DNA of 64,000 nucleotides from a virus. The notes beneath the pieces are model-generated. The model worked only from the letters and a program-made list of their open reading frames with translations, ran no database searches and was not told where the DNA came from. The number at the start of each line of letters is the position of its first letter. Position 1 is the first letter of the stretch. The translations under genes were made by a program, and so were the position numbers. The stretch is taken from positions 87,985 through 151,984 of IMG/VR virus record IMGVR_UViG_3300044568_004391; one strand, 5' to 3'. Shown piece by piece: positions 15,341-33,740 of this stretch.

Positions 15341-15353
15341 TAAGAAAATATTG

Positions 15354-16803: not shown

Positions 16804-17649
16804 TTAAACGAACAATACCTCTTCTTCCTTATGTTTTTCTTGTTGAAGAAGTTCATAAGCTCTTGCAAGTCTGGTCATACCGATTCCACCTCCGAATCTT
16901 GGGAAGAAGTTATGGGATAGGAATTCTTCAAGTTCTTTCTCCACTCTTTCTTGTCCGAACAATTCAAATAGTTTTTCACAATATCTTCCATCTTCAATTG
17001 AATAGAACATTTCTCTCATACCTTCAACATCACAAGATCTTTCAGCCGATCCAATTGTTTCTTGACCATAAAGGATGACATCAACCTTGTTGAAGATCTC
17101 ACCTTCTCTGTGTTTCATATTCCAAAATGGATTTGTTCTTCTTGGGAATAGTTCAAGAGAAACCACAGATCCTTTCTCTTGCCACATTCTTGTTTCATCT
17201 TCGTGTTCAATGATTGAAATACCACCATATTCTTCACATACTGAATCGTATGTCTCACGGATGGGTTGATCAAACCCAAGATATTCCAAAAGTTCTGCTT
17301 CCAATTGGATCATATCTTCAATAGTTCCTTTTGACTCAAACTCAAACATGGGAAAAATTAGAGAGTGTCTACCTTCAATAGGGGTTTTCTCTTCACGATA
17401 AGAAGTTGAAATACAGAATACCCCATCCCACTCAGGGTTTTTAAGAAGTTCATATTCCAACCACATCTGTCCTGTTTGTGGTAAGGGCCATTGTTCCCCA
17501 CAGTATTCAAAGGTTTTTACCGAATGAGGATTTTCACATGCCGCAAGAATTGACAAACGGGATTGAACTGGAACTTCAACAAAGTTTTTGTTTAGGAAAA
17601 ATGTTCTCATCTTTTGAACAAGTTCGTTGTAGGTTTTTGTGTTTTTCAT
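16804..17649 (-). CDS. Stand-alone class II aminoacyl-tRNA synthetase-like catalytic core
   Basis: This 281-residue protein matches the catalytic domain of class II synthetases, closest in look to the Asn/Asp group. Motif 2 is visible in 'CISTSYREEKTPIEGRHSLI' leading to FPMFEFE, and motif 3 in 'FPRFGGGIGMTRLARAYEL'. 'YGQETIGSAERSCDVEGMRE' corresponds to the amino-acid site region. There is no N-terminal anticodon-binding domain. It could be an asparagine-synthetase-like enzyme, an EpmA-like protein modifier or a tRNA-modifying ligase. The promoter is not clear. A 20-aa frame and a terminator lie upstream. Confidence 0.75.
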   Translation of the reverse strand: MKNTKTYNELVQKMRTFFLNKNFVEVPVQSRLSILAACENPHSVKTFEYCGEQWPLPQTGQMWLEYELLKNPEWDGVFCISTSYREEKTPIEGRHSLIFPMFEFESKGTIEDMIQLEAELLEYLGFDQPIRETYDSVCEEYGGISIIEHEDETRMWQEKGSVVSLELFPRRTNPFWNMKHREGEIFNKVDVILYGQETIGSAERSCDVEGMREMFYSIEDGRYCEKLFELFGQERVEKELEEFLSHNFFPRFGGGIGMTRLARAYELLQQEKHKEEEVLFV

Positions 17650-18609: not shown

Positions 18610-18662
18610 TATGGTTTGATTTTTAAAAACCATTTCGTATTTTTTCCATAAAGTTTTTGAAT

Positions 18663-19070
18663 ATGAATTTGATTCAATCTGAAGTTGGAAAAAGTCCCAT
18701 TTTACCGGATCACGTTAAGAATTATTTGATTGATATTGACGGAACAATCACCGATGATGTTCCCAATGAAGAACCAGAAAGAATGGTGTCCTGTCTTCCC
18801 TTTGTGGATGCCGTTGAAACCATAAACAAATGGTTTGATGAAGGTCATATAATCACCTTTTTTACATCAAGAACTGAAGAACATAGAAAAATCACAGAAG
18901 AATGGTTGATAAAACACAACATCAATTACCATAATCTTCTTATGAATAAACCCAGAGGTGGAAACTATCATTGGATTGATAATCATATTGTTAGAGCAAC
19001 AAGATATGATGGTGTTTGGGGTGATTTGATAAAAAAGAAAGTTGACATAGAAGTTTTTGAAGAAAAATGA
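18663..19070 (+). CDS. HAD-superfamily phosphatase of the glycan island
   Basis: This 135-residue protein has the HAD motif I NYLIDIDGTITDD (about residues 19-31), motif II 'IITFFTSRTEEH', and a later GNYHWIDNHIV segment with the acidic motif. It resembles short HAD phosphatases found with capsule and nucleotide-sugar genes. The ATG was chosen over an upstream TTG. Its end overlaps the glycosyltransferase start by 4 nt, so it heads the island operon. Confidence 0.7.
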   Translation: MNLIQSEVGKSPILPDHVKNYLIDIDGTITDDVPNEEPERMVSCLPFVDAVETINKWFDEGHIITFFTSRTEEHRKITEEWLIKHNINYHNLLMNKPRGGNYHWIDNHIVRATRYDGVWGDLIKKKVDIEVFEEK

Positions 19071-20458
19071 TTACAGTAGGATTTTCAACAAGAAAGATTA
19101 ATCCCACCTTTGTTGAGTATATAAAAAATACAATCGGTCCAAAAAATGTTGAGATAATTCCCATTGAAAACGATGGGGTTTATTCTTTAACACAAGCTTA
19201 CAATATGATTTTGGATCAAGCATCCAATGATATTGTTATATTGTGTCATGATGACATTTATTTTGAAAAAACTTACTGGGGAAAAAGGTTATTGGACCAC
19301 TTCAACAAAAATCCTGAATATGGGATCTTGGGTGTTGCCGGAACAACTTACTATCCGAAGTCAGGAAGATGGTGGGACATTCAAGGAGAAATGGTTGGTC
19401 AAGTTTATCACGAACATCAAGGGAAAAAATGGCTTTCCCAATATAACAAACCATTTGGTTCTAAAATAATCGATACTGTAATTGTGGATGGATTATTTTT
19501 GGGTGTAAAAAAATCCAACATAAAGAAAAAGTTTAATGAAGAAGTTCAGGGATTTCATTTCTATGATACAACTTTTTGTCTTGAAAATTTCTTGGAAGGT
19601 GTAAAAGTTGGAACTATATCTAACATTGAAATTACACACAAATCAATAGGTATGACTAATCAAGAATGGGAAAGAAACAGACAATTATTCGTCAAAAAAT
19701 TTGAAGATAATTTACCAATCAAATTAAAATCTCAATATCCAAAGATTGAACTTGACACCACCAAACCTATTGTTTCAGTTATAATTCCAATCTACAATTA
19801 TGGAATTCAATTTGAAAAGACATTGAATTCGGTATACGATTCAACATATAAAAATGTAGAAATCATTATTGTTAATGACGGATCCACAGATCAATATGTG
19901 TTAGAAAAACTAAAATCTTTGTCTGATATACCAAATATCAAAATTATCAATCAAGAAAATAAGGGTCCCTCGGCTGCGAGAAATAGAGGTGTACAAGAAT
20001 CAAAAGGTGACTATATTTTACCTTTGGACGCTGATGACATGATAAAACCGGAATACATTGAATCTTGTTTAAGAATTCTCAAGAAGAATCCAAATGTGAG
20101 TCCTGTATATTGTGATACTCATCATATAGGTGAAATGCAAGGAATTGAAAAAAGACCCGAATGGAGCGAGGAAAGATTAATTCAGGGACCTTTTATTGTT
20201 AATTGTTCCATGTTCCACCGAAAAGCTTTTGAGGATTGTGAAGGTTTCGATGAGGCATTGAAAGGTTGGGAAGATTATCATTTTTGGCTAAAAATGATGA
20301 AAAAAGGATATAAGGGTGTTAGAATACCAAAACCTTTGTTTGTTTATTTTCATCACGAAAAGGATGGTACTATCTCAACTGAGGCTAATGTAAATCAACA
20401 AGTTTTATATCAACAAATAATGGAAAAAATTAATAATTTTTCAAATCATGAAAATTAA
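19067..20458 (+). CDS. Two-domain glycosyltransferase (GT2 C-terminal)
   Basis: This 463-residue protein has two nucleotide-sugar transferase-like halves. The N-terminal half has 'IVILCHDDIYFEKTYWGKRL', a GT-A-like segment with an acidic pair. The C-terminal half is a clear GT2 domain: 'PIVSVIIPIYNYGIQFEKTL', VNDGSTD and LDADD, then 'GWEDYHFWLKMMKKG'. It probably extends a surface glycan or glycosylates a virion protein. It overlaps neighbours on both sides. Confidence 0.8.
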   Translation: MITVGFSTRKINPTFVEYIKNTIGPKNVEIIPIENDGVYSLTQAYNMILDQASNDIVILCHDDIYFEKTYWGKRLLDHFNKNPEYGILGVAGTTYYPKSGRWWDIQGEMVGQVYHEHQGKKWLSQYNKPFGSKIIDTVIVDGLFLGVKKSNIKKKFNEEVQGFHFYDTTFCLENFLEGVKVGTISNIEITHKSIGMTNQEWERNRQLFVKKFEDNLPIKLKSQYPKIELDTTKPIVSVIIPIYNYGIQFEKTLNSVYDSTYKNVEIIIVNDGSTDQYVLEKLKSLSDIPNIKIINQENKGPSAARNRGVQESKGDYILPLDADDMIKPEYIESCLRILKKNPNVSPVYCDTHHIGEMQGIEKRPEWSEERLIQGPFIVNCSMFHRKAFEDCEGFDEALKGWEDYHFWLKMMKKGYKGVRIPKPLFVYFHHEKDGTISTEANVNQQVLYQQIMEKINNFSNHEN

Positions 20459-21182
20459 AATTGTAAGTACTTTTTGGAATTGTAGTCAATATATAGAAGA
20501 TTGTATACTGTCAGTTAAGAACCAAACATTCAAGGATTTTGAAATGTTTTTAATTGACGATATGTCACAGGATGATACAGTTGAAAAAATTAAAAAAGTC
20601 ATAAAAAACGATTCGAGATTTCATCTCATAGTCAATGAAGAAAAAAAGTATAAATTAAAAAATATGGATGATTTAATTACGGATGAGTCTTTTTTTGACG
20701 ATGATGATGTGATTGTAGAGTTAGATGGTGATGATAAGTTATATGATTCATATGTTATTGAAAAAATCAATAACAAGTATTTGAATAATAAAAATTTATG
20801 GATTACAAATGGCAGTTTTATTTTTTCAGATGGAAATCCAGGATTCTCATCCAAAGTAAATCCATTCACCATAAGAAAAGATATTTTTAGATTTTCTCAC
20901 CTGAGAACATGGAAAGCTCACTTGTGGCGTTCCATCGATGAAGAATCTTTTATCGGTCCTGACAATGAATATTTTAAGTCAGCACCTGATGTTGCGTATT
21001 CTTTCCCAATGGTTGAAATGGCTGGTTTAAGGCACTACGAATACATACCTGATATAATGTATGTATATAACGCTTCAAGTCCATTCAATGAGAATAAACC
21101 CAAAAGTTCTATGGGAGGTTTAAATGACGTAATAAAAAACGAACATTTCATTAGAAAAATGAAATCATATAATCCTATATAA
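20448..21182 (+). CDS. Family 2 glycosyltransferase
   Basis: This 244-residue protein has the GT2 pattern: 'VSTFWNCSQYIEDCILSVKN' and FLIDDMSQDDT for nucleotide binding, and 'VIVELDGDDKLYD' as the DxD-type metal motif. No membrane segment is seen. It overlaps the upstream gene by 11 nt. The acceptor and donor are unknown. Confidence 0.8.
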   Translation: MKIKIVSTFWNCSQYIEDCILSVKNQTFKDFEMFLIDDMSQDDTVEKIKKVIKNDSRFHLIVNEEKKYKLKNMDDLITDESFFDDDDVIVELDGDDKLYDSYVIEKINNKYLNNKNLWITNGSFIFSDGNPGFSSKVNPFTIRKDIFRFSHLRTWKAHLWRSIDEESFIGPDNEYFKSAPDVAYSFPMVEMAGLRHYEYIPDIMYVYNASSPFNENKPKSSMGGLNDVIKNEHFIRKMKSYNPI

Positions 21183-21184
21183 AA

Positions 21185-22018
21185 ATGATTAAAATTAACA
21201 TGATTGGAGGCGGATTTCAACACGACATTTGCTCTTCAGCAATGAATACAAACAAATATGTTGAATGGGTCAAGGACCGATCCGCTAATATAAGCATTCA
21301 TATAGATGATGCACTAAAGTCAGAGGTTGACCCAAAAAAAAAGAATTACGGTTGGTTTTCTGAATCGAGTGCTGTTATACCAAAAATTATTGAAGATGTT
21401 AAAAACAACATCACAATTTATAAAGAAAAATATGAATTTATTTTTACACATGATAAGAGAATTGTTGACACAGATCCAACATTCTTTAAATTTACCCTCC
21501 CAAATGCACTACCTTGGATAAAAAATCAGGAAATTTATACTAAAAATAAAAATATTTCTTTTATTGTTTCTAGTAAAAACTTCACTTCGGGTCACAAGTA
21601 TCGTTTAGATGTTTTGAAAAAACATGAAGGTAAAAACATAGAACATTTTGGAAAAGGTTTTCGGAATGAATTACCTTGGTCTATAATTTTCAATAATATA
21701 GAAGAAAACGGTAAAATATTGGCGTTAAAGGACTTTAGATTTTCATTTGCATTTGAAAATGACAATTACCCATCAATTTTTTGTGAAAAAATAACAGATT
21801 GTTTTGCCACAGGTACAATTCCTATATATTGGGGTACTCCGGATATTGGTGATTATTTTGACACAAATGGTATTATTTTTTATAATGATGATTTAAATAT
21901 TGAGAATTTGAATGAAGACTTATATTATAGTAAAATGGATTCAGTTAGAAACAATTTTGATTTGATCAAAAATTTATTGAGTGCTGAAGATTATATTTAT
22001 GAAAACTATTTGAAATGA
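21185..22018 (+). CDS. GT10-type (alpha-1,3/4) fucosyltransferase-like protein
   Basis: This 277-residue protein carries the GT10 C-terminal signature: 'FRFSFAFENDNYPSIFCEKI' followed by TDCFATGTIPIYWG, corresponding to the conserved FAFEN…TEK…G-PIYWG block that binds GDP-fucose. The N-terminal half has 'FIFTHDKRI'. It sits beside a GT11-like gene and a GDP-fucose-synthase-like gene, which supports a fucose or related GDP-sugar donor. Confidence 0.8.
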   Translation: MIKINMIGGGFQHDICSSAMNTNKYVEWVKDRSANISIHIDDALKSEVDPKKKNYGWFSESSAVIPKIIEDVKNNITIYKEKYEFIFTHDKRIVDTDPTFFKFTLPNALPWIKNQEIYTKNKNISFIVSSKNFTSGHKYRLDVLKKHEGKNIEHFGKGFRNELPWSIIFNNIEENGKILALKDFRFSFAFENDNYPSIFCEKITDCFATGTIPIYWGTPDIGDYFDTNGIIFYNDDLNIENLNEDLYYSKMDSVRNNFDLIKNLLSAEDYIYENYLK

Positions 22019-22848
22019 TATCGTGTAATTTTTTTGGAGGGTTGGGTAATAATTTATTTCAATTGGCAACAGTGATTGGTATTTCGGAAAAATACAAATT
22101 TGATCTATCAATACCATCGAAAGTAAACAGAGGTAATATATCCATTTACGGTCAATCAGTTGATTTGGAATTTAATAATCTCTTTGAGAATGAATTTATT
22201 TACGACCGAATACCCAAAAACTTAAGAATATATACACATCCCGATTTAAATTTAAACAGAACTGATTATTCTTTTGTTGAACTACCAGTACAGGATAATA
22301 CAATTTATCATGGGTATTTTCAATCTGAAAAATATTTTTCAGGAGTAAACATCAAAGAAATTTTAAAATTAAAAAAAGAAAATATAGATTTAGTAAAAGA
22401 CAAATTCAACTCTTTTTTCGATAGAAAAACAGTTTCATTACATTATAGATTGGGTGGAGATCGGGTTACAAATCACATGCAATACTATCATAAGAATGTT
22501 TCGGTTGACTATTACAAGACGTGTATAGACCAAATCAAAAAAGAAAGCTCTGAAGATTTTAATATATTAATTTTTACAGACAACATGAAAATGTGTAAAG
22601 AAAAACTATCAGAGATTGATGAAAATTTTATATACATAGATAATGGGAACTCAAACATTTTAGATTTTACATTCATGAGTTTGTGTGACATTAACATTGT
22701 GGGAAACTCTACTTTTTCATGGTGGAGTGCATATCTGAATCAAAATGATAATAACACAGTTTTTGTTACTGAAAGTGAATGGTTTGGTCCCGGATATAAA
22801 CATTTCAATTTGAAGGACACCTTCCCCGAAAAATGGATAAGAATATAA
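22015..22848 (+). CDS. GT11-type (alpha-1,2) fucosyltransferase-like protein
   Basis: This 277-residue protein begins 'MISCNFFGGLGNNLFQLATV', the GGLGNQLFQ-type start of family 11. It has 'VSLHYRLGGDR' in place of the usual HxRRGD motif and ends with 'NSTFSWWSAYLN', the family's FSWWxA motif. The altered HxRxGD loop could shift donor specificity, for example to a related GDP-deoxysugar. It begins in an ATGA overlap. Confidence 0.8.
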   Translation: MISCNFFGGLGNNLFQLATVIGISEKYKFDLSIPSKVNRGNISIYGQSVDLEFNNLFENEFIYDRIPKNLRIYTHPDLNLNRTDYSFVELPVQDNTIYHGYFQSEKYFSGVNIKEILKLKKENIDLVKDKFNSFFDRKTVSLHYRLGGDRVTNHMQYYHKNVSVDYYKTCIDQIKKESSEDFNILIFTDNMKMCKEKLSEIDENFIYIDNGNSNILDFTFMSLCDINIVGNSTFSWWSAYLNQNDNNTVFVTESEWFGPGYKHFNLKDTFPEKWIRI

Positions 22849-23939
22849 ATTTTTTTTCAACCACAATATCAAAGAAGGGTATAGATAATGTTGTAAAAGT
22901 GTTGGAATCAGGATTAATTTCTGCAGGTAAAATCGCGGATCAGTTTGAAAATGAGTTATCAAAGTATGGATTTACAAATCCTGTAACCCTGAACAGTGGT
23001 ACTGTAACAATGCATTTGGCGTTAATTGCGTCGGGTGTTAAAAAAGGAGATGAAGTTATAATCCCGGCTCAAACTTTTATTGCTACAGGACTTGCTGTTT
23101 TATATGTTGGTGCTGTTCCCGTTTTTGCGGATATTAATAGTTATGACGGTAATATTTCAGTAGAATCAATAAAAGATAAAATAACCGAAAAAACCAAAGC
23201 AATTATACCTGTTCATTGGGGTGGATATCCTTGTAACATGGATGAAATAAACCAACTCGCTAAGAAATATAATCTATCGGTTATTGAGGATGCGGCACAC
23301 GCATTTGGGTCTGAATATAAAGGAAAAAAAATAGGTTCAATATCAAGGTTCACTTCTTTTTCATTTCAAGCAATAAAACATTTAACAACTGGTGATGGTG
23401 GAGTTTTATGTTGTGAGAGTAAAAATGATTATGATTTAATTAAAAGATTAAGATGGTTTGATATTGATAGGGAAAATTCTAAGGTGGGTTTTTTAGGTGA
23501 GAGAGAGTATGATGCAACAAATGTAGGTTTCAAATATCATATGAATGATTTATCTGCTAGTTTGGGTATAGGAAATTTAGAATTCATAAATGAAAGACTA
23601 AATAGAATAAAAGAAATATCAAATTTTTATAATGAAAAACTAAAAGATATTCCTGGTTTAAAAAAAATGATCTATACCGATGATCGAAAATCATCATATT
23701 GGCTTTATCCTATATTAGTAGAAAGAAGGAATGATTTTATTAAAAAAATGAAAGAAAAAAACATACCAGTTTCAGTTGTTCATTTGGGTATTGATAAAAA
23801 CACAATTTTTGGTGGTATAAATAATGATTTGATTAATCAAAGATTTTTTGATAATAACCAAATACATCTACCAATTAACGATCAACTTAGTGATGATCAA
23901 ATAGACTACATAATTAACTCAGTCACATCAGGGTGGTAA
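22833..23939 (+). CDS. DegT/DnrJ/EryC1/StrS sugar aminotransferase
   Basis: This 368-residue PLP enzyme has the family layout: 'PVTLNSGTVTMHLALIASGV', 'VIIPAQTFIATGLAVLYVGA', 'VIEDAAHAFGSEYKGKKIGS', and the Schiff-base Lys in 'SFQAIKHLTTGDGG'. It would transfer an amino group to a keto-deoxy nucleotide sugar, as in perosamine-type synthesis. It overlaps the previous gene by 16 nt. A palindrome-containing gap follows. Confidence 0.85.
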   Translation: MDKNINFFSTTISKKGIDNVVKVLESGLISAGKIADQFENELSKYGFTNPVTLNSGTVTMHLALIASGVKKGDEVIIPAQTFIATGLAVLYVGAVPVFADINSYDGNISVESIKDKITEKTKAIIPVHWGGYPCNMDEINQLAKKYNLSVIEDAAHAFGSEYKGKKIGSISRFTSFSFQAIKHLTTGDGGVLCCESKNDYDLIKRLRWFDIDRENSKVGFLGEREYDATNVGFKYHMNDLSASLGIGNLEFINERLNRIKEISNFYNEKLKDIPGLKKMIYTDDRKSSYWLYPILVERRNDFIKKMKEKNIPVSVVHLGIDKNTIFGGINNDLINQRFFDNNQIHLPINDQLSDDQIDYIINSVTSGW

Positions 23940-23954
23940 ACAATATTACTATTT

Positions 23955-23976
23955 ATATTCTAAAATTTTAGAATAT
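23955..23976. repeat. Perfect 22-bp palindrome in an intergenic gap
   Basis: ATATTCTAAAATTTTAGAAT followed by AT reads identically on both strands. It lies between the aminotransferase and epimerase genes and could be a weak terminator, an operator, or a recombination mark inside the glycan island. Confidence 0.5.
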
Positions 23977-24022
23977 AATGTTATGAATTACTTGGTTAAA
24001 TAAATTCTATAAGATAAAAAAA

Positions 24023-24952
24023 ATGAAAAAAATAATATTAGTGGGTGGTTTTGGATTTTTGGGTAAAAATCTACAGGAGGTTTTCAAAAATGATAATTAT
24101 GAAGTTTTTCCTATTTCAAGAAAAAACGGATATGATTTGTTGGAAAAAAACAAAATAAAAAAATTGATTGAAGATGTTAATCCTGATTATATCATCAATT
24201 GTGCCGCATATGTCGGTAGTTTGGAGTACGTTAACAATCATGTTGCGGATGTTATCTCAAATAATATTCTGTTAGGGTTAAATTTATGGGAGATTCTCAA
24301 AGAAGTTAAATTTGACGGAATTGTGATAAATCCTATTTCTAACTGTACATATCCTGGAAAGGCTGATTTACAAAGAGAGGAAGAATGGTGGGATGGTATG
24401 GTTCATCCGAGTATTATATCATACGGTACTGCGAAAAAAACAATTTACATGATAAATAAATGTTATGAAAAACAATATGGTATAAAAACAATAAACATAA
24501 TTATGCCAAATTCATATGGTGAATATGATTATGAAGATGAAAATAGAGTTCATGCCTTGAATGGTATTATAATCAGAATGTTGAAGATGGTAAAAAAGGG
24601 TGAAAAACAATTTACTGTGTGGGGATCTGGTACACCGATTAGAGAATGGGGTTATATGCCAGACACCGCTAGATTTATTAAATACATAATAGATAATGAT
24701 ATTATTGAATTACCTAATCCAATAAACTTAGGTCAAGGTAAAGGACATACTATAAATGAAATTACACAAATGATTAAATCATATATCGATGACGACATAA
24801 TAATTTCTAATGACATTTCTAAGATAGATGGTGATCCAATAAAGATATTAGATGGTAATCTGTTTAGAAATGAGTTCCCTGATTTTGAGTTTACAGATTT
24901 GGATGATGGAATACAAAATACTATCAAGTATTATAAAGAGATAATTTTATAA
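24023..24952 (+). CDS. GDP-fucose-synthase-like NAD(P)-dependent epimerase/reductase
   Basis: This 309-residue short-chain dehydrogenase begins 'KKIILVGGFGFLGKNLQEVF' (GxxGxxG nucleotide site). It has the 'SNCTYPGKADLQREEEWWDG' block typical of GDP-L-fucose synthases, and the catalytic SYGTAKK (YxxxK). It should convert a GDP-4-keto-6-deoxy sugar in the last step before fucosyl transfer. No GDP-mannose dehydratase was seen in the window, so the substrate may come from the host or another gene. Confidence 0.75.
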   Translation: MKKIILVGGFGFLGKNLQEVFKNDNYEVFPISRKNGYDLLEKNKIKKLIEDVNPDYIINCAAYVGSLEYVNNHVADVISNNILLGLNLWEILKEVKFDGIVINPISNCTYPGKADLQREEEWWDGMVHPSIISYGTAKKTIYMINKCYEKQYGIKTINIIMPNSYGEYDYEDENRVHALNGIIIRMLKMVKKGEKQFTVWGSGTPIREWGYMPDTARFIKYIIDNDIIELPNPINLGQGKGHTINEITQMIKSYIDDDIIISNDISKIDGDPIKILDGNLFRNEFPDFEFTDLDDGIQNTIKYYKEIIL

Positions 24953-25755
24953 TGAAAAAGTTTTATATAATTACTAAAGTTTATGATGGTGATGGTTTTT
25001 TTGCTAAATTCAATCATGTTTTGATGCATTTATATAAAGGAGATGAACTTGGTTTAATACCATATGTGGATTATACCAAACCTTCAAATCTCAGAGATTA
25101 CACAAATAATGAAACTAACAATGAATGGGAATATTGTTTTGAACAGAATTATACTTTTGATGAAGTTTATAATTCCGATCATACCATGTCAGATGGATTA
25201 TTTCAAGGTTGGTACCCAGCTCAAGGTAAGAATTACAGAAATTCTGACTTAACAAAGAGATTGAATTACCTTTATCATAAATACATAAAAGTAAAACCTG
25301 AAATTCAAAATAAAGTAGATCAAGAAATTTTTAACTACAAAACTTTGGGTGTTCATTGTAGGAGAAGTGACATGAACAGATACCACCCCGAAATCGCATT
25401 GAATATTACAAACGAAATTTTTTTTCAGAAAACTATGAAAATTTATGAAGAAAATAATTTTGAAAAAATATATATAGCGACTGAAGAAATTGAAATAATT
25501 AATTATTTTAAATCAAAAATACCTGAAAAAATTATCTATCAAGATTGTTTTAGAGTTAACAAAAATGAGTCTCCTGTTCATAAACAAGACGACAGACCTT
25601 TACACAGAACTCTACAATGTCAGGAAGTTTTGATTGATGCTTTGAACCTTGCAAATTGTAATTCTTTTTTATGTGGAATTTCGGGTGTATCGAACGCAGT
25701 TGCGTATATCAATGGTTTAAAATTTGAAAATGTGTACTATTTTGATGAAATATAA
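24952..25755 (+). CDS. Fucosyltransferase-like glycosyltransferase (GT23/O-FucT type)
   Basis: This 267-residue protein has 'TLGVHCRRSDMNRYHPEIAL', the H-x-RR-x-D motif of GDP-fucose binding in alpha-1,6- and protein O-fucosyltransferases. It also has 'KIYIATEEIEIINYFKSKIP' and a C-terminal 'SFLCGISGVSNAVAYING' segment. It starts at the last base of the preceding stop codon. It would be the third fucosyltransferase-like enzyme of the island. Confidence 0.65.
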   Translation: MKKFYIITKVYDGDGFFAKFNHVLMHLYKGDELGLIPYVDYTKPSNLRDYTNNETNNEWEYCFEQNYTFDEVYNSDHTMSDGLFQGWYPAQGKNYRNSDLTKRLNYLYHKYIKVKPEIQNKVDQEIFNYKTLGVHCRRSDMNRYHPEIALNITNEIFFQKTMKIYEENNFEKIYIATEEIEIINYFKSKIPEKIIYQDCFRVNKNESPVHKQDDRPLHRTLQCQEVLIDALNLANCNSFLCGISGVSNAVAYINGLKFENVYYFDEI

Positions 25756-25874
25756 TTTCATTTTATGTTCGATAAAAAAACAAAATATAAAATAAATTAT
25801 TAAAATTTTATTTTTAATACTTCAAACGGTAATGTTTATAGTCTTAACAAAAAGTATCAATTGATCAGAAAAAA

Positions 25875-26480
25875 ATGAAAAATTATTCAAAAAAAGAACT
25901 CATAGATTTTGAAACAAAAATCGGAGATTTATTCAATGAAGGTAAAATTAGATCACCTATACACTTATACTACGGAAATGAAGATAAAATGATTGAAATA
26001 TTTAAAAAAATTAAAGACGAAGATTGGATTTTTTGTACATGGAGATCTCATTACCAGTGTCTTCTCAAAGGAGTTAATCCTGAATTATTAACAGAAGATA
26101 TTTTGAAAGGTAAATCAATAACTTTATGTTATCCAAATTTTAAAATTTATTCTTCAGCAATTGTTGCAGGAAACATTCCAATTGCGACGGGAGTTGCTAT
26201 GGATATTAAAAGAAAAAAAGAAAAAAATCATGTTTGGTGTTTTGTTGGGGATATGGCCTCAGAAACTGGTACTTTTTTCGAAAATTGGAAATATTCAGTA
26301 AATTATGATTTACCTATAACTTTTATTATTGAAAACAACAATAAATCTGTTTGTACAGTAACAAGTGATGTTTGGAAAACTGAAGAACTTTTTTTTAAAA
26401 ATGAAAAAAGGAAAATAATCTATTACGAATATGAATCAAAATATCCACACGCTGGTTCAGGAAAAAGGATTCAATTTTGA
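25875..26480 (+). CDS. TPP-dependent enzyme, E1-alpha-like subunit
   Basis: This 201-residue protein resembles the alpha subunit of 2-oxoacid dehydrogenase E1 or split transketolases: 'IRSPIHLYYGNEDKMIEIFK', 'FCTWRSHYQCLLKGVNPELL', and the TPP motif 'FVGDMASETGTFFENWKYSV' ending with ENNNKS. It is much shorter than metabolic E1-alpha (about 330-360 residues). With the next gene it probably forms one enzyme that transfers a two-carbon unit, perhaps to a keto-sugar. Confidence 0.75.
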   Translation: MKNYSKKELIDFETKIGDLFNEGKIRSPIHLYYGNEDKMIEIFKKIKDEDWIFCTWRSHYQCLLKGVNPELLTEDILKGKSITLCYPNFKIYSSAIVAGNIPIATGVAMDIKRKKEKNHVWCFVGDMASETGTFFENWKYSVNYDLPITFIIENNNKSVCTVTSDVWKTEELFFKNEKRKIIYYEYESKYPHAGSGKRIQF

Positions 26481-26500
26481 AAATTAAAGAATATAATTAA

Positions 26501-27037
26501 ATGAAATATTTTGATGAATTAAAAAAATCAATGAATTGGTTGTCACAAAAAGAAGATACATTATTTTTGGGTCAAGCAATAGAATTTCCAGGTACAGCAA
26601 TTACAAATACATTAAAAGATGTTGATAGATCTAAACTTTTGGAAATGCCTGTAAATGAAGACATGCAGATGGGTATGACTTTAGGTATGGCGCTAAATAA
26701 AACAGTTCCGATCTCGATCTATCCTAGATGGAATTTTTTATTGTTATCCGCCAATCAAATAGTGAATCATGTTGATAAAATTAAAATAATGTCAAATGGT
26801 GAATACACACCAAAAATCATAATAAGAACATCCATTGGGTCTCAGAGACCTTTACATCCCCAATATCAACATATTGGGGATTTTACCGCCGGATTCAAAT
26901 CAATGTGTGATTATATCGACATAATAAGACTTGATGAACCTAATCAGATATTTGAGTCGTACAAGTATGCATATGAAAGAAAAGATAACAGACCAACTAT
27001 TTTAGTTGAGTGGGGTGATTACTATAATGAAAAATAA
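26501..27037 (+). CDS. TPP-dependent enzyme, E1-beta-like subunit
   Basis: This 178-residue protein matches only the pyrimidine-binding domain of E1-beta/transketolase: 'MPVNEDMQMGMTLGMALNKT' holds the Glu that contacts the TPP ring, followed by 'RPLHPQYQHIGDF'. The usual C-terminal transketolase domain is missing. It lies 20 nt after the alpha-like gene, consistent with a minimal split heterodimer in nucleotide-sugar chemistry. Confidence 0.75.
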   Translation: MKYFDELKKSMNWLSQKEDTLFLGQAIEFPGTAITNTLKDVDRSKLLEMPVNEDMQMGMTLGMALNKTVPISIYPRWNFLLLSANQIVNHVDKIKIMSNGEYTPKIIIRTSIGSQRPLHPQYQHIGDFTAGFKSMCDYIDIIRLDEPNQIFESYKYAYERKDNRPTILVEWGDYYNEK

Positions 27038-27046
27038 AATTACAAA

Positions 27047-28054
27047 ATGATTGAAATAATAAATCGAGATATTGATAAAATCTGTAAAAAAATAGATTTC
27101 TCCCGGATTCAAAATAAAAAAATATTAGTGACAGGGGCATCAGGATTAATTGGTGTTTATTTAATTTCTTGTTTAAAAATTTTCAAAAAAAAAAATAATT
27201 TAGAAATTTACGCTTGGATTAAAAATGAAATTGACGAAAATTTTATTGAAATTTTTTCAGGTTGTAATGTAATAAGGAAGGATCTGACAGATGAAAATTC
27301 ATTTTATGATCTACCCAAATTTGATATTATAATTCATTCCGCTGGTTATGGTCAACCAATTAAATTTATGGATGATAAAATCAGAACAATAAAATTAAAT
27401 ACAATATCGACTATAAAATTATTTGAAAATTTAAAAGATGATGGTAAATTTTTATTTGTAAGCTCAAGTGAAGTTTATAGTGGGTTGGATCGTCAAAATG
27501 TTTCAGAAACCGAAATAGGGACAACAAATACTGACCATGCTAGATCTTGTTATATTGAAGGTAAAAGATGTGGTGAATCTATTTGTTATTCCTACTCAGA
27601 AAAAGGTTACGATGTAAAGATAATTAGATTGAGTTTAGCATATGGACCGGGTACAAAAAAAAATGATCAGAGGGTTTTAAATTCACTAATTCAAAAAGCT
27701 TTGGAAAATGATGTAATTACATTATTAGATCACGGAACTTCAATTAGAACTTTTTTATATATTACGGATGTTATTGAAATGTTTTGGAATATAATTTTAT
27801 TTGGAAAAGAAAAGATGTATAATGTTGGTGGTGAATCTATTATGAGTATCCTGAATTTATCTAAATTAATTGGTGAAGAATTAGGTAAGAATATTAAAGT
27901 ACCAGCAACAGATAACAAACTTGTTGGTAATGCAAACTTTGTAAATATATCGATTAAAAAATACTTGAATGAGTTCGAAAAAAAGGATTTTGTTTCAATT
28001 AAAGAAGGATTGAGGAATACAATCGAATGGCAAAAAAAATTATACGAAAAATGA
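27047..28054 (+). CDS. NAD-dependent sugar epimerase/dehydratase
   Basis: This 335-residue extended SDR has 'KKILVTGASGLIGVYLISCL' for NAD binding, 'FLFVSSSEVYSG', and the catalytic YIEGKRCGE (YxxxK). It is closest in look to UDP-glucuronate decarboxylase or NDP-glucose 4,6-dehydratase enzymes. It could supply the 4-keto-6-deoxy sugar used by neighbours. Its stop overlaps the next start (ATGA). Confidence 0.75.
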   Translation: MIEIINRDIDKICKKIDFSRIQNKKILVTGASGLIGVYLISCLKIFKKKNNLEIYAWIKNEIDENFIEIFSGCNVIRKDLTDENSFYDLPKFDIIIHSAGYGQPIKFMDDKIRTIKLNTISTIKLFENLKDDGKFLFVSSSEVYSGLDRQNVSETEIGTTNTDHARSCYIEGKRCGESICYSYSEKGYDVKIIRLSLAYGPGTKKNDQRVLNSLIQKALENDVITLLDHGTSIRTFLYITDVIEMFWNIILFGKEKMYNVGGESIMSILNLSKLIGEELGKNIKVPATDNKLVGNANFVNISIKKYLNEFEKKDFVSIKEGLRNTIEWQKKLYEK

Positions 28055-29199
28055 TAAAATTAGTAAGTGATACAATAGACAGAGGTGATATAGAAAGCCT
28101 CATAGAATGGTTAAATCAGGACCCAATCCCTAGACTTACAAAAGGTGAACTTACTTTACAATTGGAGTCTATGTGGGCAAAAAAGATTGGAACCAAATAC
28201 TCTGTTTTTTTGAATTCAGGTTCCTCTGCTATTTTTCTAACTTTATTGGCATTAAAAGAAACGAATAGATTAAAAAATTTAAAAATAATCGTACCTGCTT
28301 TGAGTTGGGTTACTGACGTTAGTTCTCCAATGATTTTGGGTTATGAAACTTTTATGTGTGATTGTAATTTGAATGACTTATCATGTGATCTGGATAAATT
28401 AGAGAATTTATTTAAATCAAAGAACCCTTCTGTTTTCATTTTGGTCTCTCCTTTAGGTTTAGTTCCCAAAATGAAAGAAATAGTAGAGTTATGTGAAAAA
28501 TATGATGTTTTATTATTGGAAGATGTCTGTGAGAGTATGGGATCCAAATATCAAGACACTTACTTGGGTAATTTCGGATTCGCCTCATTTTTTTCAACAT
28601 ATTTTGGACATCATTTATCTACGATAGAAGGTGGATTTATTAATACAAATGATGATGATTTTTATCATGCGTTGTTAATGTTAAGAAGTCACGGATGGGA
28701 CCGTGATTTACCTTCGAAATTTCAGAAAAAACTTAGAAAAGAATATAATTGTGATGAATTCAACTCTCTTTACAATTTTTATTTACCTGGTATGAATTTA
28801 AGATCAACTGATTTACAAGCTTTTTTGGGTATTCGAGCGGTAGGTAAGTTAGATAGATTTGCAGAGGAAAGGAGGAAAAACTTCTTCAAGTATAATAATC
28901 TAATTTCTAAAAACATCCTCTCGTTGAGTGAAAGAGAGGGGGATTTTATATCCAATTTTGCAATGCCTGTACTAAATCACAACAGAAAAAAAATTGTTGA
29001 TAATCTAATTAAGGAACAAATAGAGGTTAGACCATTAATTGCCGGAAATATGGCTCACAAACCGATGTGGAAAGGTGATAGACATGATTTAGAGAATTGT
29101 GACTTAATCGATAAATTTGGTTTTTACTTACCGAACCATCAAGATTTAACTGACGATGAAATTTATAAAATTTCAAAAATTATAAATGAAAATGGATAA
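28051..29199 (+). CDS. ColD-like 3-dehydratase of the DegT family (active-site His)
   Basis: This 382-residue protein has the DegT fold: 'YSVFLNSGSSAIFLTLLALK', 'VLLLEDVCESMGSKYQDTYL'. The usual Schiff-base Lys is replaced in 'STYFGHHLSTIEGGF' by His187-His188. A His there is the hallmark of ColD and related E1-type PLP enzymes that remove the 3-hydroxyl of GDP- or CDP-4-keto-6-deoxy sugars. It therefore probably makes a 3,6-dideoxy-4-keto sugar (colitose or yersiniose type). The start in the ATGA overlap was preferred to one at 28027. Confidence 0.8.
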   Translation: MIKLVSDTIDRGDIESLIEWLNQDPIPRLTKGELTLQLESMWAKKIGTKYSVFLNSGSSAIFLTLLALKETNRLKNLKIIVPALSWVTDVSSPMILGYETFMCDCNLNDLSCDLDKLENLFKSKNPSVFILVSPLGLVPKMKEIVELCEKYDVLLLEDVCESMGSKYQDTYLGNFGFASFFSTYFGHHLSTIEGGFINTNDDDFYHALLMLRSHGWDRDLPSKFQKKLRKEYNCDEFNSLYNFYLPGMNLRSTDLQAFLGIRAVGKLDRFAEERRKNFFKYNNLISKNILSLSEREGDFISNFAMPVLNHNRKKIVDNLIKEQIEVRPLIAGNMAHKPMWKGDRHDLENCDLIDKFGFYLPNHQDLTDDEIYKISKIINENG

Positions 29200-29737
29200 T
29201 ATTTTTTTTGATAAAAAAACTTTAAAATATTGTGGTGAGAATGTCATAATAGGTAAAACAGTAAGGATTAGAAAACCTGAACTGTGTGTTATTGGAGATG
29301 GAACAATTATTGATGATTTCACTTATATTTCATGTGGAATAACTATCGGTAAATATTGTCACATCGCTTCGAATGTTACAATATCGGGGGGTGAAGGACA
29401 TCTATATATGGATGATTATTCTACAATTTCAAATCATTGTTCTATTCATTGCGCTAGTTCAGATTACAAAGAAGTATCTTTAGACTTACCTTCAGTTCCT
29501 GAAGATTTAAGATTTGGTGGAGAAGTTGGTGAAGTTAACATAGGTAAGTACGTAACAATAGGATCTCATTCTTGTATTCTACCGAATACTATTCTTCCAC
29601 AAGGTTTTGCTTGTGGTGCGTTTTCATTACTCAAATCACAAGAGTATAAAGAATTTTCTTTATATGCTGGAATTCCTGCTAAATTTTTATCAAAAAGGAA
29701 TAAAAATAAACTAAATGAAATAATTAAAAAAAAATGA
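29186..29737 (+). CDS. Hexapeptide-repeat acyl/acetyltransferase
   Basis: This 183-residue protein shows left-handed beta-helix repeats ('IGDGTIIDDFTYISCGITIG', 'YCHIASNVTISGGEG', 'VNIGKYVTIGSHSCILPNT') and ends like sugar O- or N-acetyltransferases ('LYAGIPAKFLSKR'). It could acetylate the amino sugar made by the DegT aminotransferase. It overlaps both neighbours. Confidence 0.8.
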   Translation: MKMDNIFFDKKTLKYCGENVIIGKTVRIRKPELCVIGDGTIIDDFTYISCGITIGKYCHIASNVTISGGEGHLYMDDYSTISNHCSIHCASSDYKEVSLDLPSVPEDLRFGGEVGEVNIGKYVTIGSHSCILPNTILPQGFACGAFSLLKSQEYKEFSLYAGIPAKFLSKRNKNKLNEIIKKK

Positions 29738-30675
29738 AAATATTCATTACAGGTGGTGCCGGTTATATAGGTACAACTCTAATCCCCTTATTGTTGGAAA
29801 AAGAATATCAAGTAACTGTTTATGACTCACTGATTTTCAATAACGGTGATAAAATTTTACCTTACATAACGAATGAAAATTTTACCTTTATCAAGGGTGA
29901 TATAAGGGATGAAAATCTACTCAAAGAAAGTTTGAAAGATCATGACGTTGTAATTCACTTAGCGGCTTTAGTTGGATTCCCAATTTGTAGAGAAAAAGGT
30001 GAAAAGGAATCCTTCGATGTTAATACAAATGGAACAAAAATAATTATAAATAACTTATCCCCAAATCAATACTTACTGTATGGTTCAACTGGATCGAATT
30101 ATGGTGATGTGGATGGAATATGTACTGAGGATAGCCCCCTTAACCCTCTGAGTATTTATGGTCAATCTAAAACACGGGCTGAAAATTTAGTAATGAAACG
30201 ACCCAACAGTACTGCATTTAGATTTGCAACTGCGTTCGGAGTTTCACCAAGATTGAGATTGGATCTTTTGATAAATGATCTAACTTATAAATCAATCAAA
30301 GAAGGATATGCCGTAATTTATGAATCACACTTTTTGAGAACATTTATACACGTGAAAGATATTGCAAGAGTCTTTGTATTTGCGATTGAAAATTCAGAAA
30401 AGATGAAAGACAATATCTATAATGTAGGATCTGAAAAAATGAATTTTTCGAAAAAAGAAATATGTGAACTTATAAAAAAAGAAATACCTAATTCTTACTT
30501 CAACTATGCCGATGTTGGAGAGGATGCTGATAAGAGAAATTATGTAGTTAGTTACGAAAAAATTAAATCGATTGGTTATGACACAACAATCGATGTTGAA
30601 ACAGGAATCAGAGAATTAATACGATCGATCCCCTTGATAAATCTTCACAATCCTTATTATAATGTTTTGAAATAA
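29734..30675 (+). CDS. NAD-dependent sugar epimerase (GalE-like SDR)
   Basis: This 313-residue protein begins 'KIFITGGAGYIGTTLIPLLL' and has 'DVVIHLAALVGFP', 'YLLYGSTGSNYG' and the catalytic IYGQSKT (YxxxK). It may be a 4-epimerase or a reductase that completes the dideoxy sugar. It ends the island and is followed by a strong bidirectional terminator. Confidence 0.8.
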   Translation: MKIFITGGAGYIGTTLIPLLLEKEYQVTVYDSLIFNNGDKILPYITNENFTFIKGDIRDENLLKESLKDHDVVIHLAALVGFPICREKGEKESFDVNTNGTKIIINNLSPNQYLLYGSTGSNYGDVDGICTEDSPLNPLSIYGQSKTRAENLVMKRPNSTAFRFATAFGVSPRLRLDLLINDLTYKSIKEGYAVIYESHFLRTFIHVKDIARVFVFAIENSEKMKDNIYNVGSEKMNFSKKEICELIKKEIPNSYFNYADVGEDADKRNYVVSYEKIKSIGYDTTIDVETGIRELIRSIPLINLHNPYYNVLK

Positions 30676-30703
30676 AAAAAGGTGGTCATTTGACCACCTT
30701 TTT
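30674..30703. terminator. Bidirectional terminator after the glycan island
   Basis: AAGGTGGTCA/TGACCACCTT stem with A-run upstream and T-run downstream. It serves the island on + and the small minus-strand gene at 30702. Confidence 0.85.
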
Positions 30704-31063: not shown

Positions 31064-31567
31064 ATGCCAAAAGTTATAAAACTTAACGAAAATGATTTAA
31101 GAAAAATTGTTGACAGGGTTATCACCGAATCCAACAAGCACGATGTTAAATGGACCAAAAACTTCAAAAAATATTTTAAACCCAACCAATACGAGCTCGA
31201 GGATAGGGATCAAAGAGAACTTCTTGAACTTATTGATGATATCAGAAGAGAACTCGACCGTTATGAGGATGGTGTTGTAACCATTAAACTCAAGGGTGGT
31301 GAATCCAAAACTCCAAACGTTGTTAATGTAAGAGGTGAAGATCAAGTTCACCCACCTGGTGCAATGGCAAAGAGAAGATGTCATTGGACTAAGAAGTTCC
31401 TTCAAAATCACGGAGGTGATCTTTTAAGGGGTGTTAATTATGTAACGGACAAGCCTTTTATCAACGGCCCCGATCATGATCCATCTAAGAGAATTAATTC
31501 TCCCGAATATTTGGACAATCAGTTTGTCGATCTTCTTGTTACCGTCAACGGTAATGTGAGAAGATAA
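31064..31567 (+). CDS. Putative head-packaged protein
   Basis: This 167-residue protein begins MPKVIKLNENDLRKIVDRVI followed by TESN; I-T-E|S fits the cleavage rule. The mature part is basic and contains 'DPSKRINSPEYLDNQFVDLL' with conserved-looking charged residues but no known fold. It is a single-gene unit flanked by the glycan island and the secreted protease gene. Confidence 0.7.
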   Translation: MPKVIKLNENDLRKIVDRVITESNKHDVKWTKNFKKYFKPNQYELEDRDQRELLELIDDIRRELDRYEDGVVTIKLKGGESKTPNVVNVRGEDQVHPPGAMAKRRCHWTKKFLQNHGGDLLRGVNYVTDKPFINGPDHDPSKRINSPEYLDNQFVDLLVTVNGNVRR

Positions 31568-31631: not shown

Positions 31632-33740
31632 ATGAAAAAAATATTTCTTGTATTTTTCTCTTTTATTTCTTTTATTGGTTTTTCGCAGTCAGATCAGTGT
31701 GGATTCGATCACATTAAGATGATGGGTATGTTTGATATTACCGAAAATCACGAAATAACGTATATTGGTAATAGAGATGAAGTTCACACAATTCCTGTTG
31801 TTTTTCACGTAATTCATTTGGGTGAAGATGAAGGTGTTGGTACAAATATTTCAGATGAACAGATTTTAGATGGATTGAGAATTATCAACGAAGACCTAAG
31901 AAAAATTCCAAATTCATGGGGTGATGGAATAGGTGTTGATGTTGAAATGGAACTTTGTTTGGCGTCGAGAGACCCTTTGGGAAATCCAACAAATGGAATT
32001 ACAAGACATGATGGTAATATATGGGTGGATTATTCTACAAATGGTATTTCATTCACACCAAACCAAGTAGGTGAACCTGAATTGAATATTAAAAATGCTA
32101 CAACATGGGATAGAACCAAATACCTGAATGTGTGGTTAGTTTCTGAAATTCAAGGAAATGACGGACTGTGGGGTACACAGGGATATGCTTACTATCCAAT
32201 CCCCAACAATCGTGACGGTATTGTTTTATTACACAATGTTATTGGTTCCTTTGGAAATGTCAAACCAACACACAATAGAAGTAGGACTTTTACTCATGAG
32301 TTTGGTCATTACTTAGGTTTGTACCACACATTTGAAAGTTATGAAGATTGTAGTTCTGCGGCTTCAGAAGTGGATTGTGTAACTCAAGGAGATAGAGTTT
32401 GTGATACACCACCCACCAAAGTGGGTTGGGGTTGTACACCGGCTTGTGTAATCACAAATTCACAATACCAAAACTATATGGATTATAGTGAACAAACTTG
32501 TAGAAACACATTTACTCAAGGACAAAAAGATAGAATGAGGGGTGGTGCAGGAATTATGAATGCTTGGAGAGTTTCTTTATTATCTAGCGATGGTTGTACA
32601 CCTGTCGAAGGAACCAATCTTTCTATTGAAAGTGGTACATATTACCAAAATTGTGGGTTTTCAGGGATCAAACCTGAAGTTAAAATTCAAAACTTGGGGT
32701 TAAATCCAATTCATCAATTTCAAGTAAGTGCAAGAATTGTTGGTACACCTTACTTTATTGTTAAAAGTTGGACATCTGAAAATCCAATAAACTTATTTGA
32801 CGTTGTCACAGTTACGTTCCCTATGGGATCTACAGATTACGGGACAGGAGAAATTATTTATCAAATTTTGGATCAAGATTCCTACATGACTGATAATACC
32901 CTTGAAATTATTTACGAATCATTACCATCGGAAGAATTAACGTTGATTTTGAATCCAGATTTTTTTGCGAACGAAACGACTTGGGAAATGGTAAATATTA
33001 ATGGTGATATAATTTGGGAGGGGGGTCCATATAGTACAGGTCCCGATAATCCAATTATCCATATCGATTGTGTCTCGAATGGATGTTATGACTTTACAGT
33101 ATATGATCAGTTTGGAGATGGATATGATTTCGGTGGGGATTTTGAGTTGATCAATTCATCAGGTGAAACATTAGCATACGGAGAGGATAATTTCGGTGAT
33201 GAGGTGACTTTTAACTTTTGTATAGATGTGCCATTTTTGGAACCCTGTAGTGATATTGGATATAATGGAATTTGTGACGATGATGAGATCGGATTAATTT
33301 GGGGTTGTTTAGATCCGTTGGCGTGTAATTATGATTTTTATGCGAACTTATCAAACGCATCTTGTATTTTTCCGAATGGTATTTACGATTGTTTTGGGAA
33401 TTGTTTGGTTGATTCAGATTACGATGGTGTTTGTGACCAATTAGAAATCTTGGGGTGTATAGATCCGATTTCCTGTAATTACGATGAAAATGCAACCGAA
33501 GAATCAGAGTGTCAATATCCAATCTTCGGATATTCTTGTGATGGTATACCGTTGACTTCATTGAATACTGTAACAGGTATTAGAGAACTAATTAATTCAA
33601 ATATCGTTGAAAAAATTATTCTATACGATATTCAGGGTAGAGAAATAAACCCTGATAAAATAACATCATCAGGTGTTTACCTAATTAATTTACACTTTAG
33701 GGATGGTACAATCAGAACTCACAAAGTTCATTTGAACTAA
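31632..33740 (+). CDS. Secreted M43-type zinc metalloprotease with T9SS sorting domain
   Basis: This 702-residue protein has a signal peptide (MKKIFLVFFSFISFIGFSQS). The catalytic domain carries the zinc motif 'FTHEFGHYLGLYHTFE' (His222, Glu223, His226, His232) and a downstream Met-turn-like 'NYMDYSEQTC', as in pappalysin/cytophagalysin M43 peptidases. Two Cys-rich units (CLDPLACNYD and CIDPISCNYDENA) follow. The last 60 residues ('KIILYDIQGREINPDKITSS' and on to the end) match a type A T9SS C-terminal signal. The host T9SS would export it to the cell surface or medium. Confidence 0.85.
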   Translation: MKKIFLVFFSFISFIGFSQSDQCGFDHIKMMGMFDITENHEITYIGNRDEVHTIPVVFHVIHLGEDEGVGTNISDEQILDGLRIINEDLRKIPNSWGDGIGVDVEMELCLASRDPLGNPTNGITRHDGNIWVDYSTNGISFTPNQVGEPELNIKNATTWDRTKYLNVWLVSEIQGNDGLWGTQGYAYYPIPNNRDGIVLLHNVIGSFGNVKPTHNRSRTFTHEFGHYLGLYHTFESYEDCSSAASEVDCVTQGDRVCDTPPTKVGWGCTPACVITNSQYQNYMDYSEQTCRNTFTQGQKDRMRGGAGIMNAWRVSLLSSDGCTPVEGTNLSIESGTYYQNCGFSGIKPEVKIQNLGLNPIHQFQVSARIVGTPYFIVKSWTSENPINLFDVVTVTFPMGSTDYGTGEIIYQILDQDSYMTDNTLEIIYESLPSEELTLILNPDFFANETTWEMVNINGDIIWEGGPYSTGPDNPIIHIDCVSNGCYDFTVYDQFGDGYDFGGDFELINSSGETLAYGEDNFGDEVTFNFCIDVPFLEPCSDIGYNGICDDDEIGLIWGCLDPLACNYDFYANLSNASCIFPNGIYDCFGNCLVDSDYDGVCDQLEILGCIDPISCNYDENATEESECQYPIFGYSCDGIPLTSLNTVTGIRELINSNIVEKIILYDIQGREINPDKITSSGVYLINLHFRDGTIRTHKVHLN

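Follow-up and report, generated by a model that had tools for sequence, protein, structure and literature searches.

The window analysed here comprises the last 64 kb (64,000 nucleotides) of a 151,984-bp IMG/VR virus record (IMGVR_UViG_3300044568_004391), and it contains an island of 14 collinear genes for glycan synthesis, g01 to g14 (Table 1). Here we show that the island genes are replaced as a unit between near-identical phages, and that the same types of gene cassette occur in different phage lineages at different loci. On balance we favour a reading in which the island represents one allele at a locus for glycan synthesis that large T4-like phages swap among themselves; its enzymes would make a branched sugar by the route proposed below, and the product would be placed on the virion.

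Allelic replacement at the island

A close relative of the phage, G002, was found through the gene at 31064-31567 to the right of the island, which matched two of its contigs (L337 and L338). On the left the two phages are 94-97% identical up to position 18653. On the right homology resumes at 30672, the stop codon of g14, which is followed by a hairpin terminator, and identity is 93% over 8.2 kb to the right of 33382. Between these borders the slot of G002 holds a GT2 glycosyltransferase, a DegT enzyme, an RmlD-like short-chain dehydrogenase/reductase (SDR), several other transferases and two GT11 enzymes. The first 613 nt of g02 are 77.5% identical to the G002 allele and the rest is unrelated; at the protein level the N-terminal match is 97% identical over the first 40 residues, dropping to about 65%. 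Because only the start of g02 is common to both alleles, the constant left border of the slot is the N-terminal Glyco_tranf_2_5 (GT2_5) domain of g02. The preceding g01 is absent from the same spot in G002, and in many other cassettes it precedes the same glycosyltransferase (63-74% identity); it is an extra gene of the window allele.

The same cassettes in a second phage lineage

The nearest kin of the window cassette lie in a different phage lineage and at a different locus, which runs from dUTPase to PhoH. Two contigs from two metagenomes, L088 and L089, are 99.995% identical over 19.7 kb and carry g04-g14 (11 genes) in collinear order at 48-80% amino acid identity, although an extra gene, peculiar to these contigs, separates g06 from g07; their cassette stands between a Glyco_tranf_2_5 gene and PhoH. 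The agreement of these two assemblies, together with the coincidence of the island edges with those of an independent allele, makes a chimeric assembly very unlikely.

A search with the anchor domain found at least 296 viral contigs, and gene order was read in 80 of these that were fetched. In 77 of the 80 loci the order is a 3'-5' exonuclease, dUTPase, sometimes a g01-type HAD protein, the anchor GT2_5 and then variable glycan genes, with PhoH next wherever the second-lineage locus is complete. The 27 complete cassettes (1.5-9.7 kb) sort into 18 types, and pairs of loci with a flank identity of 50-65% have a median identity of 61% in the GT2_5 N-domain and 17% in the C-part. The window cassette is of the L088 type and that of G002 is of the L358 type (L358-L362; about 70-73% at the nucleotide level), and in both lineages one locus holds different gene sets in close relatives. 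Given that the slot of G002 differs, that kin cassettes stand elsewhere and that complete cassettes are of so many types, this is therefore a serotype-like allelic locus with cassettes moving between large T4-like phages. Among the phages that bear it are contigs of 152-322 kb that encode a Gp23-like major capsid protein. A preliminary description of this DNA had proposed transfer as a block; the block stands, and its route is from phage to phage at an allelic slot, as seen from the other cassette in G002 and the collinear kin in the second lineage, so that the island is not a single drop-in of a bacterial cluster into a phage.

In L425 and L358 two or three more conserved genes flank the dUTPase-PhoH locus (clusters d3, d20 and d22, of which d3 is a PHROG glycosyltransferase), which suggests a constant core glycan with a variable cassette. 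Neither the GT2_5 anchor domain nor the GT23-like gene g08 had a match in the annotated phage collection, and a near-DNA search of the same collection with 17 kb likewise gave none.

Base composition of the island

The island was also said to be richer in A+T and in A-runs than its flanks, and it is: its G+C content is 0.293 against 0.345 (12-kb flank windows, 0.331-0.361; Mann-Whitney test on per-gene values, p=6e-7), and A-runs of at least 6 nt number 5.2 per kb against 2.0 per kb. Because the alternative allele in G002 is likewise low (0.285 vs 0.343), low G+C is not in itself a sign that bacteria recently donated the island. The L088 cassette hardly differs from its flanks (0.279 vs 0.288), and these figures, together with the low G+C of both focal-lineage alleles, fit a cassette pool shared among AT-rich phages. 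An Rfam scan of 15-34 kb of the window gave no match, and promoter-like sites were not above chance (88 vs 85.5 expected).

A thiamine enzyme with a predicted 3-dehydratase and a predicted C4-dehydrogenase

Products of g09 and g10 form an alpha/beta pair of the 2-oxo-acid dehydrogenase E1 type with the residues that bind thiamine diphosphate (ThDP). Across 157 sequences these residues (Glu of the PYR domain; G-D/E...N of the PP domain) and several histidines are invariant or nearly so: R57, H59, G125 and N155 of g09 and the catalytic Glu53 of g10 are invariant, and position 126 of g09 is D or E. The fold of the beta subunit (E1b) is nearer to 2-oxo-acid dehydrogenase E1-beta than to transketolase. 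The g10 protein lacks the transketolase C-terminal domain, stopping after the PYR domain, and Pfam gives Transket_pyr only. E1-alpha/beta-type enzymes, namely AviB1/AviB2, Pau11/12 and KbDH, attach two-carbon branches to keto sugars of antibiotics (PMC4425429, PMC4753412, PMC12247030). The g09/g10 pair would work like this AviB/KbDH group but is kept outside it because the C-terminal domain of the beta subunit is absent. A YerE-like, decarboxylase-type branching enzyme was rejected, the family being E1-like; branching of lipopolysaccharide (LPS) sugars is known from YerE-like enzymes, which belong to another superfamily.

The second component is g12, which has His at the site of the Lys that binds pyridoxal phosphate (PLP) (YFGHHLSTIEGG) and whose best Protein Data Bank (PDB) match is ColD (2gms, 1e-56). 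Only g06 of the two DegT proteins keeps the aminotransferase Lys (FQAIKHLTTGDGG), and the His is present in all E1-linked DegT homologues with a readable motif. By its sequence, then, g12 is predicted to be a 3-dehydratase of the ColD/RfbH type and not an aminotransferase. The two DegT enzymes listed previously thus both keep their fold and divide in function into one aminotransferase and one dehydratase, so that an island with two aminotransferases was rejected; the earlier label 'dideoxysugar' is apt for g12 taken as a 3-dehydratase. A simple GDP-fucose island was also rejected, given this dehydratase and the lack of a Gmd match in the contig. The third component, g14, aligns over residues 2-304 with 6vo6, which we take to be Cj1427 (297 bits, 1e-87; second-best PDB match, 106 bits).

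At least 131 contigs of viruses and at least 133 of bacteria carry the split E1 pair, the latter including SAR11, SAR86, SAR116, Nitrospira, Verrucomicrobiota, Burkholderiales, Planctomycetota, cyanobacteria and Bacteroidota, and its two genes are adjacent in 156 of 160 loci. Its company was examined in well-covered loci (at least 14 kb of sequence; 45 viral and 58 bacterial) and in two control sets anchored on DegT1 or on a glycosyltransferase (n=44 and n=72). Of the viral loci 44/45, and of the bacterial loci 51/58, have a His-type DegT near E1, compared with 6/44 and 10/72 in the control sets. For a Cj1427-like SDR the counts are 41/45 (viral) and 49/58 (bacterial), compared with 0/44 and 1/72. 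The dependency is one-way, since in the second control set most 3-dehydratases have no E1 nearby and are usually accompanied by Gmd. Bacterial E1 modules often hold apparent heptose guanylyltransferase and isomerase genes (assigned by eye). A B12-binding radical SAM protein (cluster c4; L149, L169, L100), usually encoded directly beside the alpha subunit (E1a), accompanies 31/45 viral and 50/58 bacterial loci and is absent from the island; its possible role is C-methylation of the branched sugar.

A tree built from 157 E1a+E1b sequences requires 7 label changes for its viral rows, where shuffling leads one to expect 50. The window E1 groups with L091 (99% support), and the branch around them comprises 50 viral rows and 2 bacterial ones. 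As the window copy lies in this branch and label changes are so few, the E1 module has long been resident in phages. Two contigs from metagenome-assembled genomes labelled Bacteroidales and Parcubacteria (L177, L188) lie within the viral branch; they may derive from phages and have been binned with bacteria.

Proposed sugar pathway and acceptor

Cj1427 with a C3-dehydratase yields GDP-3-deoxy-4-keto-heptose in vitro, presented as a novel product (PMC10680097). From this and the precedents for the E1 pair we infer that a GDP-linked 3-deoxy-4-keto sugar is given a two-carbon branch. According to this model, g14 or a host enzyme would make a GDP-4-keto sugar, g12 would strip the C3 hydroxyl, and g09/g10 would add a two-carbon unit, probably from pyruvate, at the C4 ketone. 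The SDRs g07 and g11 would then reduce or epimerise the branched product, g06 and g13 would yield an N-acetylated amino-deoxy sugar, and the GT2, GT10, GT11 and GT23-like enzymes would build a short branched oligosaccharide. Other nucleotide-sugar genes are scattered over the record: a cytidylyltransferase-like gene at 38620-39015 (-), an RmlC-like 3,5-epimerase gene at 44913-45533 (-) and an RmlB/Gmd-like SDR gene at L006:18517-19449.

None of the 14 island proteins has a clear transmembrane helix; hydropathy exceeds 1.6 at a few peaks only, which belong to SDR and DegT proteins and are compatible with buried core segments. Pfam and PDB comparison revealed no flippase, polymerase, initiating transferase or ligase family among the 14. 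That the first glycosyltransferase stays the same while the other genes vary suggests that the acceptor, too, is constant. Because export genes are lacking and the first glycosyltransferase domain is constant, we consider it more likely that a constant acceptor in the cytoplasm is glycosylated directly than that the host surface is remodelled, with a virion protein as the most likely, predicted acceptor. The oligosaccharide would be assembled in the cytoplasm on an acceptor set by the conserved first glycosyltransferase, each phage type thereby gaining its own sugar coat. Roles proposed for known phage glycan genes are alteration of the host surface (PMC2984593, PMC7029224) and modification of virions or of DNA (PMC12619734). 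We lean towards ranking virion glycosylation above the host surface and the host surface above DNA. A literature search on phage-encoded glycosyltransferases with capsid terms gave no match.

Gp23-like capsid proteins of locus-bearing phages have 611-671 residues, against 445 in a T4-like comparison contig, and contain a Gly/Ser/Thr/Ala-rich insertion, which makes them a candidate glycan acceptor. In the major capsid protein of G002 (L349:469-2322) this insertion lies between the two Gp23 blocks. Terminase and Gp23 models had no match in the 151,984-bp record and matched in the close relatives G001 and G002.

Alternative explanations

Rather than branching a sugar, g09/g10 might be transketolase-like and supply sedoheptulose-7-phosphate for heptose synthesis. 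An HddA-like heptose kinase is indeed frequent at bacterial E1 loci (52/58), and in the cyanophages S-SM2 and P-TIM68 the fused E1 gene bears the annotation 'transketolase central region' and has phosphoheptose isomerase genes nearby. We nevertheless regard this as quite improbable, since in sequence and fold the pair is nearest to 2-oxo-acid dehydrogenase E1, its tightest partner is the 3-dehydratase, the kinase is near only 14/45 viral loci, and hosts normally own a transketolase. Several points do weigh against the branched sugar and virion target that we prefer: 7 of the 58 bacterial E1 loci have no 3-dehydratase; neither an HddA-like kinase nor Gmd was found in the focal contig, a fragment in which no separate search was made for other heptose genes, and a sugar precursor would therefore have to be supplied by the host or encoded in the part of the genome that is missing; and soluble transferases could act on host lipid-linked sugars without any phage export gene.

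This last point bears on a further explanation, which we hold to be rather unlikely, that the cassette makes a new nucleotide sugar for transfer to lipid-linked intermediates of the host and so alters the surface polysaccharide of infected cells, thereby blocking superinfection or grazing, with alleles that track host serotypes. The same has been proposed for the LPS-gene clusters of cyanophage P-SSM2 and pelagimyophages (PMC2984593, PMC7029224), and the E1/3-dehydratase/heptose module also occurs in many bacterial phyla, in apparent surface-polysaccharide clusters. Against it, membrane and export components are missing from the cassette, the constancy of the first glycosyltransferase domain fits an unchanging acceptor of the phage better than host glycans that vary, and there is little time in a lytic cycle for a surface to be rebuilt. 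That the cassette glycosylates modified phage DNA, rather than protein or host glycan, seems very improbable: in the contig, which does not cover the whole genome, the thymidylate-synthase-family enzyme has Asn (PFNIASY) and not the Asp of dCMP hydroxymethylase.

Comparison with known systems

Phage LPS genes have been a puzzle since P-SSM2, and it was left open whether they work or are stuffer DNA (PMC3037559). Cyanomyoviruses (P-SSM2, S-SM2, S-SSM7) and pelagimyophages are, like the phages described here, large and T4-like with many glycosyltransferase and nucleotide-sugar genes (PMC3037559, PMC7029224). S-SM2 and P-TIM68 likewise own an E1-like gene, but it is fused and its E1b part is only about 30% identical; SDR3 of the island has at most 37% identity to any phage record. 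What sets the present locus apart from those clusters is full allelic replacement between near-identical phages, with sharp borders and a constant anchor domain, and the sharing of cassette types between two lineages of phages that carry them at two different loci.

Bacterial O-antigen and capsule loci resemble the island in being allelic, low-G+C cassettes of nucleotide-sugar and glycosyltransferase genes between fixed flanks. Unlike them, the island is phage-borne, is anchored by a constant glycosyltransferase domain and has no Wzx, Wzy, initiating transferase, ABC exporter or ligase among the families matched. The gtr serotype-conversion clusters of temperate phages comprise the gtrAB membrane proteins (flippase and bactoprenol transferase) and one variable gtrC. 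As generally known, they too are phage glycosylation loci with a constant part and a variable specificity part, but the island is a soluble multi-gene cassette that includes sugar synthesis. Mycobacteriophage glycosyltransferases act on virion proteins of the capsid and tail tube (Freeman et al. 2023, as cited in PMC12619734); those phages encode one or few transferases, in contrast to the multi-gene sugar pathway and allelic system found here.

The antibiotic enzymes of avilamycin (AviB1/AviB2), paulomycin (Pau11/Pau12) and kibdelomycin (KbDH) are, like g09/g10, pairs resembling the alpha and beta subunits of pyruvate dehydrogenase E1, the kinship with AviB1/AviB2 being by family only (PMC4425429, PMC12247030). 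Pau11/12 have 325+345 residues, and the phage and bacterial pairs here 201+178, without the C-terminal domain; unlike the antibiotic pairs, the latter lie in glycan clusters with a GDP-type 3-dehydratase and a C4-dehydrogenase. In Campylobacter jejuni the homologues of g14 and g12, the Cj1427 C4-dehydrogenase (HS:2) and a PLP C3-dehydratase (HS:5), belong to different serotypes and were joined only in vitro (PMC10680097), whereas here they co-occur naturally with the E1 pair.

Moraphages are large aquatic T4-related phages with predicted Bacteroidota hosts and four core glycosyltransferase families, and a PhoH-like protein and a lysine-tRNA ligase are among their conserved genes (PMC12619734). 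It is plausible that contigs with the cassette locus belong to the moraphages or a neighbouring group; a variable glycan cassette is not described in the passages of that paper that were searched.

Gene layout and neighbourhood

The 14 collinear plus-strand open reading frames recorded previously extend from 18657 (TTG; ATG at 18663) to 30675. Overlaps are common, as had been said (8 of the 13 junctions), although their size is 1-28 nt and not 4-16 nt; the remaining junctions have gaps of 2-119 nt. Pfam matched HAD, GT2 (two glycosyltransferase domains in g02), a further GT2, GT10, GT11, two DegT, three SDR, E1_dh, Transket_pyr and hexapeptide families. Most enzyme names given earlier agree with Pfam and PDB comparison, apart from the GT23-like one, which is below the cut-off; one is changed, that of the DegT enzyme g12. 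The AlphaFold2 model of g02 (mean predicted local distance difference test score, 93.4) has a GT-A fold and is best matched by majastridin (2nxv). The g11 protein carries the motif SSSEVYS...CYIEGK and lacks the 4,6-dehydratase Asp.

Table 1. Genes and terminator of the glycan island in the window.
Feature	Position	Strand	Assignment
g01	18657..19070	+	Small HAD-family phosphatase, LNS2/acid phosphatase B-like; Pfam
g02	19067..20458	+	Two-domain glycosyltransferase: N-terminal Glyco_tranf_2_5 (about 19067-19680) and C-terminal GT2
g03	20448..21182	+	GT2 glycosyltransferase; Pfam
g04	21185..22018	+	GT10, fucosyltransferase-like; Pfam 31.8 bits, cut-off 23.9
g05	22015..22848	+	GT11, fucosyltransferase-like; Pfam
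g06	22833..23939	+	DegT-fold sugar aminotransferase, catalytic Lys present
g07	24023..24952	+	GDP-fucose-synthase-like SDR (epimerase/reductase); PDB match 4b8w, 1e-26
g08	24952..25755	+	Weak GT23/FUT8-like glycosyltransferase; 21.6 bits, under the 27.6 cut-off
g09	25875..26480	+	Minimal E1-alpha-like ThDP (PP) subunit, 201 aa
g10	26501..27037	+	E1-beta-like PYR subunit, 178 aa
g11	27047..28054	+	SDR, by sequence closest to UDP-glucuronate decarboxylase (UXS)
g12	28027..29199	+	Predicted ColD/RfbH-type PLP 3-dehydratase, His in place of aminotransferase Lys
g13	29186..29737	+	Left-handed beta-helix (hexapeptide) sugar acetyltransferase
g14	29734..30675	+	SDR homologous to sugar-nucleotide dehydrogenase 6vo6 (Cj1427-like, C4-dehydrogenase of GDP-heptose)
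Terminator	30676..30703		Inverted repeat directly 3' of g14; right edge of island

Adjoining the island, 16804-17649 (-) encodes a 281-residue class II aminoacyl-tRNA synthetase-like protein with a D/K/N-type core and no anticodon domain, an extremely conserved phage gene with relatives at 72-86% identity in at least 597 viral contigs. A secreted M43 peptidase (31632-33740) and a protein with a CHU_C type IX secretion domain (35056-37194), both encoded beside the island, point to a Bacteroidota host. Unusually for a phage, the contig encodes an ATP-type phosphoenolpyruvate carboxykinase, an adenylosuccinate synthetase and a cysteine-synthase-like protein (L006:5874-7355, L006:15845-16861 and L003:17313-18218). 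Unrelated proteins begin with a similar amphipathic motif, K-L-x-E-x-D-L-x-x-I-V-x-x-I-x-E (31064-31567, 15351-15800 and L007:4287-6264 (-)), with three tandem paralogues in L007 and a fourth in L006. Thirteen tRNA genes, all on the minus strand, occupy 39052-63938 in the last 25 kb of the window.

Implications

Tentatively, and with less assurance than we place in the allelic reading of the island, we propose that large lytic phages have a serotype system of a constant anchor and exchanged cassettes, and that the window allele makes an undescribed GDP-linked 3-deoxy, C4-branched higher-carbon sugar (a 4-keto-3-deoxy heptose or hexose extended by two carbons), which surface glycans of SAR11, Nitrospira, Verrucomicrobia and other groups would also contain. 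The occurrence of wholly different cassettes in near-identical phages, and their sharing across lineages, argues that the glycan is used and is under diversifying selection, and the use of phage glycan genes can now be tested by comparing virions or infected hosts. E1-type sugar branching is known mainly from antibiotics (PMC12247030, a 2025 review); the trio of E1, 3-dehydratase and C4-dehydrogenase points to a branched-sugar pathway, as yet unassigned, that would operate in abundant bacteria of aquatic habitats and in the phages of these bacteria.

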